DNA of 64,000 nucleotides from assembly GCA_019637995.1 (NCBI GenBank), contig JAHBUQ010000001.1, positions 744,001-808,000 of the forward strand, in the 5' to 3' direction. The stretch comes from Ignavibacteriota bacterium. Its GTDB lineage: Bacteria; Bacteroidota; Ignavibacteria; Kapaibacteriales; UBA2268. Positions 34,905-42,640 of this stretch are shown one piece after another. The notes under the pieces are model-generated. The model had not been told where the DNA came from. It saw only the letters and a list, made by a program, of their open reading frames with translations, and ran no database searches. A program made the position numbers and the translations under genes. Within the stretch, counting starts at the first letter, position 1, and every line of letters starts with the position of its first letter.

Positions 34905-37229
34905 ATGAATTTTTCAAAGTTTTTTATAAGCTTCACAATCATTTTTTTTGGATTTTTAATATCATTATCAGCTCATGACAGAACAATTAGGGGTATTGTT
35001 CATGATAAAAACGACAAACCAATTCCAAGTGCGACTATTCGCCTTGAAAATACAATGCTTGGAACAATAGCAAACAAGCAAGGTGAGTTTATGCTCAGAC
35101 GTATCCCCGACGGGAAGTTCAGATTAGCAATAACTGCTGTGGGTTATGAACCATATTATCATACAATTGAATTCGAGCACGAAGATGGAGATGATATGGA
35201 TTTGAATATTACAATGTTTGAGTCTGTCATATTTTCCGGTAATGTTGTTGTCACAGCAACACGCTCGGACAAAATATATGAGGATGTACCCGTAAAAGTG
35301 TCTGTAATTGATGATAAGATATTTACAACATCTCAATCAGTAGCTCTTCGTGACGGACTTAGATTTCAACCGGGACTCAGAGTAGAGGCGAACTGTCAGA
35401 ACTGCGGTTTTACTCAGGTAAGGCTCAACGGACTTGAGGGCAGATATTCTCAGATTCTAATTGATAGCAGACCTATATTTTCATCATTGAATGGATTATA
35501 CGGCTTAGACCAAATTCCGGCAAATATGATTGACAGAGTTGAGGTCGTAAGAGGTGGCGGCTCTTCACTTTATGGTGGGAATGCTATTGGCGGGATTATA
35601 AATATCATCACAAGGAAGCCTGAAGAAAGCAATTTTGAAGCATCATATCTGCATGGTTTTATAGATGGCAGAATCCCTGACCGTTCTATGCAGTTAAGTG
35701 GTTCAAGTGTAACCCAAAGGCAGGACGCCGGAGTTTATCTTTTCGGAAATTTCCACGAAAGAAATCCATGGGACGCAAATGGTGATGGGTTTACAGAGTC
35801 GTCACTTCTCAAAGAAAATTCATTTGGAGCAAGAGCATTTTATGCTCCAACAGCATACAGCAAATTATCACTTGATTTTCATTCGATTGGCGAGTTCAGA
35901 CGTGGGGGAGACCAGCTCGAACTTCCACCACATGAAGTAATGATGGCTGAAGAACTGACACATGATATTCATGGAGGAGGACTAACTTATGAGCAGTACT
36001 TCAACCGTAATCTATCGAAATTATCTGCATATACTTCTGTGAATTTTACAAACCGCAGAAATTATACCGGTATTGAAATGGACCCTCGTGGCTATGGCAA
36101 AACCAATAACTCTGTATATGTTGGCGGGCTTATGATGTCGCATGCTATTGAAGATGCATGGATAGGAAGCAATGTGCTTACTTTTGGTGCTGAATATCAG
36201 TATGACAATGTAATTAATGAAGCTACAGGTTACAGGACATCACTAAATCAGACTACGAGATTATGGGGATTCTATTTCCAGACAGACTGGCTTATGACTG
36301 ATAAATTCAGCTTACTTACAGGTGCAAGAATTGATAAACATAATTTTGTCGAAAATCCAATGATTAACCCAAGACTTACTGCAATGTATAAAGCTACAAA
36401 AGATTTAACTTTCAGAGGTAATCTTACAACCGGTTACAGAGCGCCACAGGCGTATGATGAAGACCTGCACGAAAGTCTCCGCTCCGGTACAAGAATGATT
36501 ATCCTTCTCGACCCTGATTTGAAAGAGGAACGCTCATTTGGATATTCCTTCAGTGGTGATTACACATATTACATTGATGAATTGCCAATTTCACTTTCGT
36601 TGGAATATTTCAATACAAGGCTATTGGATGTCTTCGTTAATGAAGAAACTGGTATTGATGCCGCAGGGAATATTGTATTTACAAAAAGGAACGGAGATGG
36701 TGCTACGGTTCAGGGAATGACAGCTGAATTCAAAACATTTTTTACTTACGATATTCAGCTACAGACCGGTATTACTTACCAAACAAGTACTTACGATTCG
36801 CCCATTTTATGGTCTGAGGGGGATGAGACTGAAGGAATTCCGGAGCAAACTACAAGCAATATCCTCCGAACACCTAATCTTTATGGCTATCTTACACTGT
36901 TTGCACAAATCACTGATAGCTGGGATGTTAACCTGACAGGCATTTATACTGGCAATATGTATGTACCACATTATGCCGGTGGAATTCGACCGGATGGTTC
37001 TGTACTTGAATTAGACAGAATGACTGAATCGCCTGATTTCTTTGAGCTGAACATTCAATCATCTCTAAAGGTTTTCAAAAATCCTGATATTTCTCTCAGT
37101 TTTGGAATAGTCAATTTGCTGAATCAGTTTCAGAATGATTTCGACAGAGGAGCTTCCCGAGATACAGATTATATATATGGACCTATTCGCCCACGAACAT
37201 ACACCTTTGGAATTAAAGCAGGTATATAG
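34905..37229 (+). CDS. TonB-dependent outer-membrane receptor
   Basis: A 774-residue receptor. Signal peptide to about residue 24, then a CarboxypepD_reg-like domain (RTIRGIVHDKNDKPIPSATI, to about 115), the plug (ETVVVTAT-type box as NVVVTATRSDKIYEDVPVKV, and VEVVRGGGSSLYGGNAIGGI) and the 22-strand barrel ending YTFGIKAGI. The plug carries the paired cysteines NCQNCGFTQVRLNGLEG seen in a widespread Bacteroidota subfamily. The regulator just upstream has DtxR-type ligands, so iron or another transition-metal chelate is the likely substrate; this is inferred from context only. Confidence 0.93.
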   Translation: MNFSKFFISFTIIFFGFLISLSAHDRTIRGIVHDKNDKPIPSATIRLENTMLGTIANKQGEFMLRRIPDGKFRLAITAVGYEPYYHTIEFEHEDGDDMDLNITMFESVIFSGNVVVTATRSDKIYEDVPVKVSVIDDKIFTTSQSVALRDGLRFQPGLRVEANCQNCGFTQVRLNGLEGRYSQILIDSRPIFSSLNGLYGLDQIPANMIDRVEVVRGGGSSLYGGNAIGGIINIITRKPEESNFEASYLHGFIDGRIPDRSMQLSGSSVTQRQDAGVYLFGNFHERNPWDANGDGFTESSLLKENSFGARAFYAPTAYSKLSLDFHSIGEFRRGGDQLELPPHEVMMAEELTHDIHGGGLTYEQYFNRNLSKLSAYTSVNFTNRRNYTGIEMDPRGYGKTNNSVYVGGLMMSHAIEDAWIGSNVLTFGAEYQYDNVINEATGYRTSLNQTTRLWGFYFQTDWLMTDKFSLLTGARIDKHNFVENPMINPRLTAMYKATKDLTFRGNLTTGYRAPQAYDEDLHESLRSGTRMIILLDPDLKEERSFGYSFSGDYTYYIDELPISLSLEYFNTRLLDVFVNEETGIDAAGNIVFTKRNGDGATVQGMTAEFKTFFTYDIQLQTGITYQTSTYDSPILWSEGDETEGIPEQTTSNILRTPNLYGYLTLFAQITDSWDVNLTGIYTGNMYVPHYAGGIRPDGSVLELDRMTESPDFFELNIQSSLKVFKNPDISLSFGIVNLLNQFQNDFDRGASRDTDYIYGPIRPRTYTFGIKAGI

Positions 37230-37431
37230 AAGTTTTAAATTTTATACAATCAAAAAAATGTAAATTAAAAATTATTTTAATTATCATTTTTTTATTATAT
37301 TACAATTGTGATTCTGTCAATTTTGAATTTTGTTCTTTTTATTTAGTGGGTTGAGAGATTAATTGGCGCAAATAATGTGCCACTTTTACTTTATATTAGG
37401 AGTATTTATTATGTATTCTAATTTATTTTTA

Positions 37432-37450
37432 GGCGGCTCGCAGAGCCGCC
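37432..37450. repeat. GC-rich palindrome
   Basis: GGCGGCTC-GCA-GAGCCGCC, a perfect 8-bp stem with a three-base loop, almost entirely G+C in an AT-rich region. It immediately precedes the 8-bp tandem repeat and looks like an inserted REP-type hairpin. Confidence 0.75.
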
Positions 37451-37482
37451 GGACAGCCGGACAGCCGGACAGCCGGACAGCC
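37451..37482 (+). repeat. Octanucleotide tandem repeat (GGACAGCC)4
   Basis: Four exact, adjacent copies of GGACAGCC. Eight is not a multiple of three, so each gain or loss of a unit shifts the reading frame that enters from ATG 37411. The repeat is GC-rich and lies between a strong start site and a hydrophobic segment in another frame. Confidence 0.9.
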
Positions 37483-37544
37483 GTATTAGATTTTTTATTG
37501 CCACAATTATACTTGGTATAATAATAACTTTAGGAGGCAATAAA

Positions 37545-39995
37545 ATGTATTCCGACATACCTGTACCTGAGAAAATGATTGAGATTACAGATTTTCAGGT
37601 GCTTACAGGTGATAGCGTAAGCATTGGTGATACTATTGCTGTATTATTGGATTTCAGAGCTATAATTGATTGTGATGTTATGGTTTCTTTGCCAATATTT
37701 GGTGGAATCAGATTACTTAACGATACTACGAGAAACTTCCAATATTCACAGAACATAAGTGTGGAAAAGGATAGTATCGAAAGCCTTACTTTTTACTTAA
37801 TTGCAAGTGATTCAGGTACTACCTATATTAAAGCTGCTGTAGCTATTATACCCAATGATAGCTATGTAAGATTCCCTCAAAATTTTTCCGGTATGGATGA
37901 ATCACCACATTATGAAATTGATATTGGTACACCCGATATATCGTATTTAATGATTTGTAAGAATTTTATACCAAATCAAGATATTGTATGCCAAAATTTA
38001 TACTTCGGACAGCTTGTTTTAAATGTAGGTACTGAAGAACTTTCACCTGTTAGAAGAAATGTAAATGTTAACGGAAAAATATTATTTCATGATTATTATG
38101 AACCATTCGCTCCAAATGAAGCACGAGAAAAAGGTGCATTAACTAATGTCTGGCTTTTTTTCTACAAGTCAAATTTACATGTTTCATTATATCATCCTGT
38201 GCCTTATCATAATGGAAAACCTATTGAAGGGGTTCATTTTGCAAGATGTAACGAGCAAGGTGGATTCGGATTTGCATTTGACTATCTTTTAGATTCTCTG
38301 ATTTTATCTGACCCTTCAGCAAATTGGAAAATTGGACTTTTTGTAGGCAAGGAAAATGAAGCTGTTTTATTAAATTCTATGAATAAACATCATTTGATAC
38401 ATAATATTGTCAATCCTGACAGAGATTCTGATGAATTAAAAGTATTTCAAATAAGAATAAATCCTGACTTAAATAATCAATTTTCGTCAACTGCAAACTA
38501 CACATGGCATCTTGGAAAAAGATATTTCGGGTCATTTGGTTCGAATGATGAAGAAGGAGCTATTTTCAGACACACGACTTTAGCAAGAAAATTCTTAATT
38601 GAAAGACTGGAAATTGATGAAAACAACTCAATTCAAATGGCTGAAAATATTCCTAATCAAGTTGTTATTAATGAAAAATATCATCCATCTGATAAAAACC
38701 ATTTCAATGGATTTACAAAGTCGATAAATATCGTACATCGTAATAATGTTAGAAGGTCATTACCAACTGCAAACTTGATGGCTCATGAATGGGCTCATTA
38801 TTATCATGACTTTTTAACATTTAGAGGTAGCTCAGAAATTTATGAAGGATGGGCAATGTTTTTCGCTAATGTATTTATTGATTGGCAAGAGAACAAATAT
38901 GGGGACTACCGAAATCATATCGATGATACTGAAATGGGACCGTTTACTTCTCATGAACTTGATGATGATGGCGGGTTAGAAATTTGGGAGCGATTTGGAA
39001 ATTGTAGTCAAGTTACTTTTAATAACTTGAATGCATATAACAGATGTCGATTTGCAGCTTATCTCGGCAATCTTTATGATAGTTTTGATGAAGGGGATTT
39101 TAAAAGTTTTAGATATAGAGGGTATGATAATGATGATGTGCAAGGTTTAGGAAAAACAGTGTTTGATTGTTTTGTACATTACAACCTTAATTACGAGACA
39201 TTAACAGTTTCCGATAAATCAATACCGAAAGGTTTCAATGATTTATTCAAATCATTTGCTGCTGATACCGACAACGAATTACAAGAATCCATTCAAAAAA
39301 TATATGATTTTATGGAGTTTGGTGATAATGTATTACCATTATCTTCTGATATCGCTATAAGATCACCACAGATAAACTTATCGTCTTTTGTGGAGGATAC
39401 AGATTTGGTTTTAGAATTTGAAACCCGTGCTTATCCTGATAATATTGGACTTGGTTCAATAGTGTATTATGAAAATTCAATCAAAGCATTTTCTACTACA
39501 TCATTTGATTTTCGTAATAGAGAAACAGGTGTTAACATCTATGTTTCAGATGGTTTAGACTGGGTGTTGCAAAATTTTGTCAGTTTTACAGAGCAGGATT
39601 ATTCTTATGTTATAGATAATCGAATTCCCAATAACTACAAAATATCAAGTTTCAAGTTACATGGTGGTGATTCATACAATCCCTATATAAGGACGACTCC
39701 AGGTAAGAGAAGTCTATTTGGATTTGAAGAACAAAACACTAAACCTTTGATATACCCGAATCCTAATAACGGATTAATAAACATCAAGTCCTCATTATTT
39801 GGTAGTACAGATTTGACAATCGAACTATTTGACTTATTGTCAAATACAATATTTGTTGTAAATCTTAAAGCAAACAACAATCTTGTTACTTTTTCGATAC
39901 CACAGCATTTAACAAATGGTACTTACTTTATAAAAATTACTGATAAAATTTCAGGCAATAACTTAATGAGCAATTCAGTAATTCTTAAACGTTAA
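37545..39995 (+). CDS. T9SS cargo with a HEWAH putative zinc metallopeptidase motif
   Basis: As assembled, translation would start at ATG 37545 (TAGGAGG seven bases upstream), giving 816 residues with no signal peptide. That is odd, because the C-terminus is a type A sorting domain (PLIYPNPNNGLINIKSS to GNNLMSNSVILKR), and T9SS cargo needs Sec export. Residues 1-110 form a beta-sandwich. A HExxH-type site, LMAHEWAHYYHDF (H414, H418), is followed by Glu434 in EIYEGWAMFF, suggesting a gluzincin-like protease; family and activity are unproven. The in-frame sequence upstream encodes a likely export helix cut off by a frame-shifting repeat. Two further T9SS cargos follow. Confidence 0.8.
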   Translation: MYSDIPVPEKMIEITDFQVLTGDSVSIGDTIAVLLDFRAIIDCDVMVSLPIFGGIRLLNDTTRNFQYSQNISVEKDSIESLTFYLIASDSGTTYIKAAVAIIPNDSYVRFPQNFSGMDESPHYEIDIGTPDISYLMICKNFIPNQDIVCQNLYFGQLVLNVGTEELSPVRRNVNVNGKILFHDYYEPFAPNEAREKGALTNVWLFFYKSNLHVSLYHPVPYHNGKPIEGVHFARCNEQGGFGFAFDYLLDSLILSDPSANWKIGLFVGKENEAVLLNSMNKHHLIHNIVNPDRDSDELKVFQIRINPDLNNQFSSTANYTWHLGKRYFGSFGSNDEEGAIFRHTTLARKFLIERLEIDENNSIQMAENIPNQVVINEKYHPSDKNHFNGFTKSINIVHRNNVRRSLPTANLMAHEWAHYYHDFLTFRGSSEIYEGWAMFFANVFIDWQENKYGDYRNHIDDTEMGPFTSHELDDDGGLEIWERFGNCSQVTFNNLNAYNRCRFAAYLGNLYDSFDEGDFKSFRYRGYDNDDVQGLGKTVFDCFVHYNLNYETLTVSDKSIPKGFNDLFKSFAADTDNELQESIQKIYDFMEFGDNVLPLSSDIAIRSPQINLSSFVEDTDLVLEFETRAYPDNIGLGSIVYYENSIKAFSTTSFDFRNRETGVNIYVSDGLDWVLQNFVSFTEQDYSYVIDNRIPNNYKISSFKLHGGDSYNPYIRTTPGKRSLFGFEEQNTKPLIYPNPNNGLINIKSSLFGSTDLTIELFDLLSNTIFVVNLKANNNLVTFSIPQHLTNGTYFIKITDKISGNNLMSNSVILKR

Positions 39996-40014: not shown

Positions 40015-41325
40015 ATGAAAATATTTTATTTATTTGTGATCATACTGATGACATCAAAAAGTTTTAGTCAGGATAACTGGCGTATTATTGAACCAAATTG
40101 GGCAGGATTTGATATATCAGTAATTTACCACATTAATTCATTTGATAATGGGCAGCTAATATTACACACAGATGGTAATATATACCACTTATTTCCAGAA
40201 GATTTATCTAATATATCACTCATTAATTTTACTGATTGGAATACTCTCTTAGGGGGTGTATCCGGAAAAAGTCAATCTGAAATTGTATTTTATGGAATTG
40301 ATTTTAACCCTTTTACTTTCCCTAAAGCTGAAAGAAGACGAGTTTATTATAAGTTATTCAAGGACACTACAAAAAATGTTGATGGCAAGAAATTCAAAGC
40401 TTATGCTTATGATGCAATTCCGTATCAGGGATATTCAGATGCTGAAGTTGTTTATTCCAACATCAATACATCAGGTTATGGAATAAGTGTTGCTAAACCT
40501 AAAATGATGACTTTCTCTTATGAAAATTGGGTGGAAACAACAGAAGGATTTAATGATGAATACGAGGCACAATGCGGAGTTTTTCACAACGATAAGAATT
40601 ACATTGTAGCAGTCAACAAACAGAATGAAATTAACATTTTATCTACAATTGATGGCTCTGAATGGGTACTTGAAAGCACTCTAAGTCATTTTAAGTTTGA
40701 TGAAAACGATGGAATTGTTAAGCTTCTGATAAACAACGAAAATGATTATTATATCATTACAAAAAAAGGGATTCATTATTCCTTAGATTTCGGTAAAAAC
40801 TGGAATACTATAGAACTGAGTTCTTATGAAATCAACGATGCGGTTCTTAGAAATCAAAATGAAATTTACTTTTGTGGGAAATTAGGATTGGTTGCAAAAT
40901 TAGATTTACATACATTTGATTATCAAATATTCCAGAATTCAATCGAATTTGATTTAAACACTATTCACTTCACTAATATTGGTGATTGTTGGCTTGGCGG
41001 TAAGAGTACGAAATTGCTTAAGTATCAATTTGGTACAAGTCTAGAAGATGCTACTTACAAGTTAGAAAATTTAACGAGTATTTACCCAAATCCAAGTCAG
41101 AGTTTTATTCGTATCAAAAGTCCAATATTGGAAAATAAATCAGTCATAATAAATATTTATGACATCAATTCTCTAAAGCTACATACTGCTTATTTGGTTG
41201 CTAAAAGTAATGAACTCAACATACAACTTCCTACTTCACTATCAAATGGTGTTTATTTTATCAATATTATTGACAAAAATGAAAACCAACTTTTGTTGAA
41301 TGATTCATTCATTATTAGTAAATAA
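40015..41325 (+). CDS. T9SS cargo with sialidase/Ycf48-like propeller
   Basis: A 436-residue exported protein (signal peptide ending SKSFSQ). The central part shows propeller-type repeats with Asp-box-like turns (STIDGSEWVLES, SLDFGKNWNTIEL), and the C-terminus is a type A sorting domain (LTSIYPNPSQSFIRIKS to LLLNDSFIISK). AGGAG precedes the ATG. It follows the metallopeptidase-like gene by 19 bases, probably in one transcript. No catalytic residues are evident; a binding or surface-structural role is likelier. Confidence 0.8.
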   Translation: MKIFYLFVIILMTSKSFSQDNWRIIEPNWAGFDISVIYHINSFDNGQLILHTDGNIYHLFPEDLSNISLINFTDWNTLLGGVSGKSQSEIVFYGIDFNPFTFPKAERRRVYYKLFKDTTKNVDGKKFKAYAYDAIPYQGYSDAEVVYSNINTSGYGISVAKPKMMTFSYENWVETTEGFNDEYEAQCGVFHNDKNYIVAVNKQNEINILSTIDGSEWVLESTLSHFKFDENDGIVKLLINNENDYYIITKKGIHYSLDFGKNWNTIELSSYEINDAVLRNQNEIYFCGKLGLVAKLDLHTFDYQIFQNSIEFDLNTIHFTNIGDCWLGGKSTKLLKYQFGTSLEDATYKLENLTSIYPNPSQSFIRIKSPILENKSVIINIYDINSLKLHTAYLVAKSNELNIQLPTSLSNGVYFINIIDKNENQLLLNDSFIISK

Positions 41326-41331
41326 TTATCA

Positions 41332-41360
41332 ATAGCCCCACTCCATAAAAGTAGGGCTAT
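41332..41360 (+). terminator. Intercistronic hairpin
   Basis: ATAGCCC (41332-41338) pairs with GGGCTAT (41354-41360), with a partial inner stem. It is followed by AACAGGAG, the ribosome binding site of the next gene, rather than a T-run. It may be a weak terminator, an RNA processing or stability element, or a translational modulator of the downstream propeller gene. Confidence 0.4.
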
Positions 41361-41377
41361 AACAGGAGAAAATTAAG

Positions 41378-42640
41378 ATGAAAAAAATTATATTTTTATT
41401 CATAATGGCCAATGTAACATTAACAATAAAACTTACAGCAGAATGGGAAAGAATACCTTTTGGTGATGATATTTATTCAATAATTATAAAAACAAATGGA
41501 GATATTTTCGTTGGTACAGAAGGTCGTGGAGTCCAATTAAGTACAGATAATGGTAATAAATGGAAAATATTAGATAATGGTTTTCCATTTCCGTTTGTTT
41601 CTTCCTTAAGTGTAAGTGATTCTAATATTTATGCTGGTACATTTGGTGAAGGTGTATTTTTGAGCACTAATTATGGCGTTGAATGGAAATCATTAAATAC
41701 CGGATTGGACTCACTAAATCCAAGTGGTTCGGTTTGGTCAGTCGTTGCTGAAGGTACAAATGTATTTGTCGGTACACCGGGAAGAGGTATATTTGTGAGT
41801 ACAAATTTGGGTCAGTCATGGTATCCAATTAATAATGGATTACCTGAACGAATAATTTTTTCAATTTGTATGAAGGATACCAATATTTTTATTAGTGTAA
41901 CTGGAATTGGTAGTAATAATAGCTTTGGGATTTACCTTAGTACAAATAAAGGAGAAGGTTGGAACGAAGTAAATAGTGGTTTATCAAACCTTTCTATTAG
42001 AACTATAGTTACAAATGGTACAAATCTTTATGCTGGTACACTAGGAGGAGTATTCAAAAGTACAAATAATGGAGAAAGTTGGGAATCTATAAATATTGGT
42101 ATTACAGATTTTCGTATTTTATCATTAGCATTGAATGATAAATATTTATTTGCTGGTACATATGATGGCAAGATTTTTATGAGCACCAATAGCGGTGATA
42201 GTTGGAAAAGAATTGATAATGATATTACAACAAGTCGTATTCAAACATTAGCAATTGGTAATGGATATATTTTTGCCGGTACATCATATGGTTCACCTAA
42301 AGGTATTTTCAGAGCAAAATTAAGCGACATAGAAACAAGCGTAGCGGACATACCTGTAAATAATAATCAAATATCAGTTTATCCGAATCCCGCAAGTGAT
42401 TATATTACAATTTCTATCCCTGAAATCAACCCTACGGTTAACCGCAGGGTTGATGGGTTGGTTGATAAAGTGCAAATATTTGATATGCTTGGGCTGGAAG
42501 TTTTATCTGTAGGGATAGGGCTTGACCTGTCCACACAGAAAATTGACGTATCGCATCTGCCGACGGGAGTGTATTTCATCAGAATTATTTGCAGCAATGG
42601 AGCTTGCTCCATTGTCGAGAAGTTTGTGAAGCAATTGTAG
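41378..42640 (+). CDS. T9SS cargo: Asp-box beta-propeller with palindrome-bearing sorting domain
   Basis: A 420-residue exported protein. Six Asp-box turns are readable (STDNGNKWK, STNYGVEWK, STNLGQSWY, STNKGEGWN, STNNGESWE, STNSGDSWK), each with GT- or VGT-type strands before it, indicating a Ycf48/BNR-like propeller over about 20-310. The sorting domain starts ISVYPNPASDYITISIPEI and ends IVEKFVKQL. Three stretches in it (NPTVNRRVDG, GIGLDLSTQ, CSNGACSI) are encoded by palindromic DNA elements at 42425-42454, 42507-42538 and 42595-42614; see findings. AGGAG precedes the ATG. Confidence 0.85.
   Translation: MKKIIFLFIMANVTLTIKLTAEWERIPFGDDIYSIIIKTNGDIFVGTEGRGVQLSTDNGNKWKILDNGFPFPFVSSLSVSDSNIYAGTFGEGVFLSTNYGVEWKSLNTGLDSLNPSGSVWSVVAEGTNVFVGTPGRGIFVSTNLGQSWYPINNGLPERIIFSICMKDTNIFISVTGIGSNNSFGIYLSTNKGEGWNEVNSGLSNLSIRTIVTNGTNLYAGTLGGVFKSTNNGESWESINIGITDFRILSLALNDKYLFAGTYDGKIFMSTNSGDSWKRIDNDITTSRIQTLAIGNGYIFAGTSYGSPKGIFRAKLSDIETSVADIPVNNNQISVYPNPASDYITISIPEINPTVNRRVDGLVDKVQIFDMLGLEVLSVGIGLDLSTQKIDVSHLPTGVYFIRIICSNGACSIVEKFVKQL
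42425..42454. repeat. In-frame 30-bp palindrome in a sorting domain
   Basis: ATCAACCCTACGGTT-AACCGCAGGGTTGAT: 14 of 15 base pairs match across the dyad. It lies inside the coding sequence of the propeller cargo and keeps the reading frame, encoding INPTVNRRVD. Confidence 0.85.
42507..42538. repeat. Degenerate in-frame palindrome in a sorting domain
   Basis: The arms CTGTAGGGATAGG and CCTGTCCACACAG pair at most positions (two adjacent mismatches, one G-T pair) around a six-base centre. It looks like a decayed copy of a GTAGGGACAGG-type palindrome. It encodes the GIGLDLSTQ loop of the same sorting domain. Confidence 0.65.

Follow-up and report, generated by a model that had tools for sequence, protein, structure and literature searches.

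The window, a 64,000-nucleotide stretch of an Ignavibacteriota genome of 3.92 Mb in 6 contigs, carries a metallopeptidase-like gene behind a compact series of features, all on the forward strand. An AGGAG site (37398-37402) lies ahead of an ATG at 37411 and forms, with the 5' region, the start codon and the sequence coding for MYSNLFL, a leader (37300..37431) of which the genome holds five copies and which is referred to here as the cassette A leader. The leader runs into a perfect hairpin, GGCGGCTC-GCA-GAGCCGCC (37432..37450), predicted to form an RNA stem, and then into four exact units of the octamer GGACAGCC (37451-37482), within a periodic stretch of 4.5 units (37448..37483). This array had the best score (72) among the 50 tandem-repeat rows of the window, and no two-unit match to GGACAGCC was found in 100 shuffled versions of the window. 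Directly downstream, a signal-type segment, IRFFIATIILGIIITLGG (37485..37538; best 11-residue Kyte-Doolittle mean 3.12), shares the reading frame of the long gene, which is open over 836 codons plus a stop (37485..39995) and encodes a protein with a zincin-like HEXXH motif and a C-terminal sorting domain. As assembled, the ATG at 37411 is off by 2 relative to this frame and opens a 36-aa peptide that ends at a TAA at 37519-37521 (37411..37521); the frame of the long gene itself has no ATG, GTG or TTG from the array to the helix. The ATG with its AGGAG site, the hairpin and the four exact 8-bp repeats are all present where the initial annotation had placed them. Its reading that the export-type helix shares a frame with the 816-codon call and not with the ATG at 37411 was confirmed by frame computation, and its arithmetic, by which one unit fewer or two more restores the fusion of ATG, helix and gene, is correct. 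An Rfam search of 37200-37620 returned no match.

The annotated product of the gene is an 816-aa call that lacks the helix and begins at an internal ATG at 37545, which does have the GGAGG motif ascribed to it earlier (37533..37547). A T9SS C-terminal sorting domain was identified at 39750..39947 (PF18962, 35.7 bits; TIGR04183, 30.8 bits, both above cut-off), and the zincin-like residues H414, E415 and H418 (816-aa call numbering), together with E434, are invariant in all four aligned sequences. No peptidase family profile matched the window protein above its cut-off. The predicted structure of the 816-aa protein (mean pLDDT 44.6) was too poor for a fold search, and a profile search against solved structures found two weak C-terminal matches (E 0.2 and 0.86). 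A putative Sec signal of the protein was seen as a hydrophobic helix only, and this helix is out of frame with the ATG at 37411. The stop of the 36-aa frame precedes the internal ATG by 23 nt, a spacing that re-initiation could bridge; a methionine at the equivalent place was absent in the relatives read, so that a non-secreted product from this start would be a guess. The next gene begins 19 nt past the stop of the window gene, a distance short enough that a switch at the array might affect it too. At 40015-42640, downstream of the metallopeptidase-like gene, two further genes have C-terminal ends that resemble sorting domains by eye, and both may share the transcript of such a switch.

Octamer loci across the genome and its relatives

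At least six octamer loci are present in the genome: three copies of cassette A, two copies of a cassette B and one single array, locus C. The cassette A leader occurs at five sites (100, 95, 94, 90 and 85% identity), three with hairpin and repeats and two with neither. The three are the window locus itself (A1 at C1:781448, 4 units), A2 at C1:1045141 (12 units including two variant ones) and A3 at C2:1441979 (under 2 units). The two bare leader copies lie at C3:101162 (L026) and C2:1165897 (L027), and the latter directly precedes an ordinary signal-peptide gene, forming a natural counterpart with no switch. Cassette B occurs as B1 at C2:595867 (8.5 units, in frame) and as B2 at C2:601038 (about 7 units, out of frame). 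The 292 bp preceding the array are identical in the two, and different genes follow; searching with the B leader brought up no third copy. A second record of B1, P0005, is cut at the array and is uninformative on unit number. Locus C (C2:1290137) is in frame and has GTG and ATG codons just upstream of its helix; at A1, A2, A3, B1 and B2 the gene frame contains no ATG, GTG or TTG between array and helix. The cassette-A hairpin folds stably (z -3.24, the value of the window segment, and -4.98 against shuffles), and inspection by eye showed no hairpin of this type next to the arrays at locus C and in relatives.

Among ten array loci with intact genes, taken from this genome and three relatives (A1, A2, A3, B1, B2, C, one each in G002 and G001, and C15 and C18 in G019), the sorting domain scored above the curated cut-off at five (A1, B1, B2, G002 and G001), below it at two (A2 and A3), and was unseen by profile search at three (C and both G019 loci). 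Matches to the sorting-domain family at E 0.001 numbered at least 150 each in this genome (G000), G001 and G002 and 105 in G019, which points to large sets of T9SS cargo in these genomes.

Six homologous loci of the window gene (window included) were read as DNA; in four of them an octamer array separates the start codon from the helix, and the unit differs in each. The array of G002 C125 is built of AGCAGCAC and is in frame; those of G019 C15 (AATACTTC) and G019 C18 (TTCAATGG) are out of frame. No array was found at G002 C251 or at G050 C106, the N-terminus of the latter being scanned for arrays only. At the protein level, P0002 has SSRAAEQQ repeats upstream of its helix, and P0004 is without repeats; the loci L066 and L068 also lack them. 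P0003 is called from an internal methionine. Its 97% identity to the G002 protein (842 residues compared) hints, without proving anything, at a second phase within one species. Two outcomes under which the initial annotation would have been abandoned were a four-unit break fixed in all relatives and orthologues that start at the ATG at 37545 with no helix upstream. Relatives lack the former, since their units, copy numbers and phases differ, and the latter was not seen, all six N-termini read (G002 C125 and C251, G019 C15 and C18, P0002 and P0004) having a hydrophobic segment upstream.

Arrays of this kind are sporadic in the family, the AGCARCAS octamer being found in 2 of 54 family genomes. 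No arrays were detected at the 29 best-match DUF7948 loci of relatives, some of which lie near contig ends and whose N-termini were not individually checked. P0010 matches A2 at 88% identity over the part compared, and its n-region can be read as an octamer repeat. Protein database searches with n-region repeats returned 6 proteins for SSRAAEQQ and 11 for SRTAGQPD; apart from P0002 and the records of the genome itself, P0010 and P0013 (the latter called from an internal methionine) are the only ones that resemble relatives of these genes. The remainder match through the DUF7948 part or through nothing but the repeat. The full-length cassette A leader was not found in 39 relatives, four of which gave partial matches of 27-41 bp, and the hairpin with its unit, allowing up to 2 mismatches, was absent from all 59 relatives searched.

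Frequency of octamer arrays and expectation by chance

To place these loci in context, tandem arrays were surveyed in a genome sample of 882,543 bp, consisting of the window, two known-cassette loci and forty stretches of 20 kb, most of them selected around sorting-domain hits and one, L197, for an array known there, with 4,000 bp of overlap between L017 and L148 counted twice. Over the survey as a whole, an array was already known in the window, L017, L021, L158, L197 and L245 when they were fetched. All five exact period-8 arrays of three or more units in this sample precede a strong helix at the 5' end of a gene, a position that, taken as the first 40 codons of strong-helix genes, comprises about 3% of the bases. 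None arose in five order-3 Markov simulations of 882,543 bp, against the five observed, and the simulations produced no arrays at any period from 7 to 11. Twenty stretches (400,000 bp) picked regardless of sorting-domain hits held no octamer arrays of three or more units, the best octamer run there being AT-rich and 2.88 units long. In all, roughly one third of the genome was sampled. At other periods from 7 to 24, the 882,543-bp sample contained two arrays of three or more units at period 7 (3.0 and 3.3 units) and six at period 11 (3.9-10.9 units), the latter belonging to an intergenic element.

Samples from relatives gave two period-8 arrays in G002 (330,568 bp; one before a helix and known beforehand, one intergenic), one in G001 (384,383 bp; before a helix) and three in G019 (345,752 bp; one at a helix and known beforehand, one at a 31-codon stub, one intergenic). 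When distinct octamers are counted over all four genomes, 6 of 8 lie at signal-type helices, with a chance probability of 2e-8 at about 3% per position; under a stricter helix threshold the count is 5 of 8 (1.4e-6), because the G019 helix scores only 2.06. When only octamers met blind are considered, three of five (B1, C and G001, against L163 and L235) are at helices (chance 2.7e-4). The seven helix octamers have no stop in any frame, for which composition alone gives a probability of 0.006, and they are not independent, as several resemble each other. As a control, we examined 69 named genome stretches with three GGACAGCC units, mostly from high-GC genomes: of their 71 GGACAGCC arrays, 34 are near the 5' end of an open frame and one of the 71 is also followed by a strong helix. 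The exceptions to the pattern are two apparently intergenic arrays, TCGAAGTA in four copies in G002 (L163 11557-11589) and GGCTTTAT in eight copies in G019 (L235 2012-2076).

Other tandem arrays were met during the survey. The 11-mer TCTCAACGAAT or its complement, in 3.9 to 10.9 copies, is a dispersed intergenic element of the same genome, located at L140 7810-7885, L155 17508-17583, L200 5780-5833, L205 6284-6326, L208 1643-1762 and L210 8720-8762, and the L208 copy precedes small signal-peptide genes. G002 has an 11-mer array of its own, ATCTCAAAAAT in five copies (L165), with downstream sequence similar to that of the TCTCAACGAAT element. The sole Rfam match of the 11-mer element, to a microRNA family, was below the gathering score and was taken as chance. 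Single arrays of other kinds were also recorded in the genome (L304 5001-5033, period 9, 3.67 units; L299 7806-7864, period 18, 3.28 units) and in G019 (L247 18326-18411, period 11, 7.82 units).

A candidate phase-variation switch and its alternatives

We consider it probable (about 0.83) that the window array is a slipped-strand phase-variation switch for an exportable T9SS-domain protein. The octamer array separates an ATG bearing a ribosome-binding site from the predicted signal-peptide helix of a sorting-domain protein; polymerase slippage would gain or lose units, and with each such frame change synthesis of the exportable protein would start or cease, presumably often enough to matter within a population. 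An in-frame product would be exported by Sec and then by the T9SS, and the out-of-frame form would yield no exported protein. Five of the six loci in the genome belong to copied 5' cassettes, each made up of the 5' region, ribosome-binding site, start codon, inverted repeat and array. Observed in favour of the switch are the anatomy of the locus, its recurrence at six loci, the other octamers of relatives, the spread over three frames and a length difference of whole units. With an 8-nt unit in 4 copies from start codon to helix, the array also falls within the range published for simple sequence repeats in phase variation, given in the available part of the source as units of 5-9 nt in 3 or more copies (PMC5953494). 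The phase-variable secretion switch put forward by the initial annotation is largely supported, slippage itself being a likely reading. Four units are short for a fast contingency locus, which counts against the switch, as do the shared wrong phase of the cassette-A copies, the sporadic occurrence, the two intergenic arrays, the possible starts upstream of the helix and the lack of a sorting-domain match at locus C, the passing of a curated sorting-domain cut-off at five of the ten loci, and the survey stretches whose arrays were known beforehand.

The ten array loci with intact genes, which are different loci, are distributed over all three phases: three are in frame (B1, C and G002), three are off by 1 and four are off by 2, the last including all three cassette-A copies, which are not independent. 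The seven out-of-frame genes are nonetheless open over 836, 1262, 1130, 552, 299, 827 and 844 codons. The whole-unit length difference comes from duplicated copies within G019, not from strains: their flanks are identical over 256 bp upstream and differ at a single position over the first 72 bp downstream, and their array spacing is 44 against 28 bp, equal to two units, one of them mutated. One of the two copies is a 31-codon stub. Further evidence is provided by A2 and A3, both DUF7948 genes (L017 1355-5140 and L021 5002-8391), which over their first 630 nt have 2, 2 and 17 differences at the first, second and third codon positions, with 16 of the differing codons synonymous and 5 not. The chance of 17 or more third-position differences among 21 is about 1e-5, a bias that fits selection on the protein, though both genes, as assembled, are out of frame.

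These data bear most directly on the explanation that a dispersed element of leader, hairpin and repeats inserted into genes and broke them, leaving loci that are decaying and frames that are incidental. Dispersal of the leader in five copies is what such an element would produce, and the uniformly out-of-frame cassette-A copies and the G019 stub can be read in the same way. However, loci of the same layout are in frame at B1, C and G002, all seven out-of-frame genes have remained intact over hundreds of codons, A2 and A3 have diverged mainly at third positions, and relatives have other octamers at the same place. An insertion of the REP type, which had been named earlier as the main alternative, is thus disfavoured by the in-frame loci, the intact frames and the A2/A3 divergence, and we regard it as unlikely.

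Slightly less probable still is that the array tunes expression, its unit number altering initiation through the hairpin or the length of the n-region, with out-of-frame forms translated by re-initiation or frameshifting. The stable cassette-A hairpin and the ATG at 37545, with its GGAGG and its position 23 nt past the end of the 36-aa frame, would suit this account. Against it, the corresponding segment of cassette B folds no better than shuffles (z +1.21), no such hairpin was seen by eye at locus C or in relatives, and the relatives read lack a methionine at the position of the internal one; moreover, a unit of 8 bases is not divisible into codons, and either wrong frame occurs as often as the right one. 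Neither programmed frameshifting nor an RNA regulator, which were likewise considered and rejected, had support beyond the cassette-A hairpin.

The least likely of the three is that the array serves chiefly as a recombination handle for swapping 5' cassettes among genes for exported proteins, with frame effects secondary: A2 and A3 are 97% identical over the 300 bp that follow the array, 96% over the next 300 bp and 52-61% beyond about 900 bp, so that they are probably mosaic genes produced by copying of the 5' part, and B1 and B2 differ in their genes behind identical upstream sequence, but the G019 copies differ by whole units within flanks matched on both sides.

A broader form of the switch reading is that the copied cassette acts as a portable start-codon module, which would capture T9SS signal-peptide genes devoid of a start and make of each a three-phase random switch. 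A population would in this way shuffle its surface proteome, and octamers would arise or be replaced repeatedly at the same spot in relatives. We offer this extension tentatively, at somewhat less than even odds.

Random switching driven by repeats is best known from pathogens that vary their surface, and in the opa genes of Neisseria the CTTCT repeats are located in the leader peptide. These repeats are reported to govern opa expression (PMC5953494). As at the present loci, a multigene family carries repeats close to the start of its surface proteins, although the opa unit is of five bases and of one sequence and the products are outer-membrane proteins with no T9SS. Neisseria autB, as described in the portion of its report available, has AAGC repeats within the signal-sequence DNA, and resembles the loci described here in that repeats of a length not divisible by three lie in the signal-sequence DNA of an exported protein, and in that the intact gene is often out of frame and in frame only at some unit numbers (PMC5118866). 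The autB unit has four bases and its cargo is an autotransporter, whereas the units here have eight bases and the cargo is of the T9SS type (PMC5118866, same portion); unlike what that portion describes for autB, several loci here share copied cassettes and unit sequences differ between relatives. Octanucleotide repeats have been proposed to mediate phase variation in Haemophilus influenzae, where, in the part of the account available, the eight-base units are intergenic or 200-213 nt upstream of hmw rather than between start codon and signal helix (PMC2651432). Based on these three precedents, the principle of the repeat switch is already known. Our literature search, covering sources available in part, found no report of repeat switching of T9SS-type cargo, of copied start-repeat cassettes or of octamers differing between relatives.

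In the bacterium studied here, this principle would operate at the signal peptide, with copied cassettes as its means of spread and exported proteins of the T9SS type as its targets. If this is true, gene calls that start after the array, as for P0001, P0003, P0011 and P0012, hide the export signal, and single genomes understate the surface repertoire of such bacteria.
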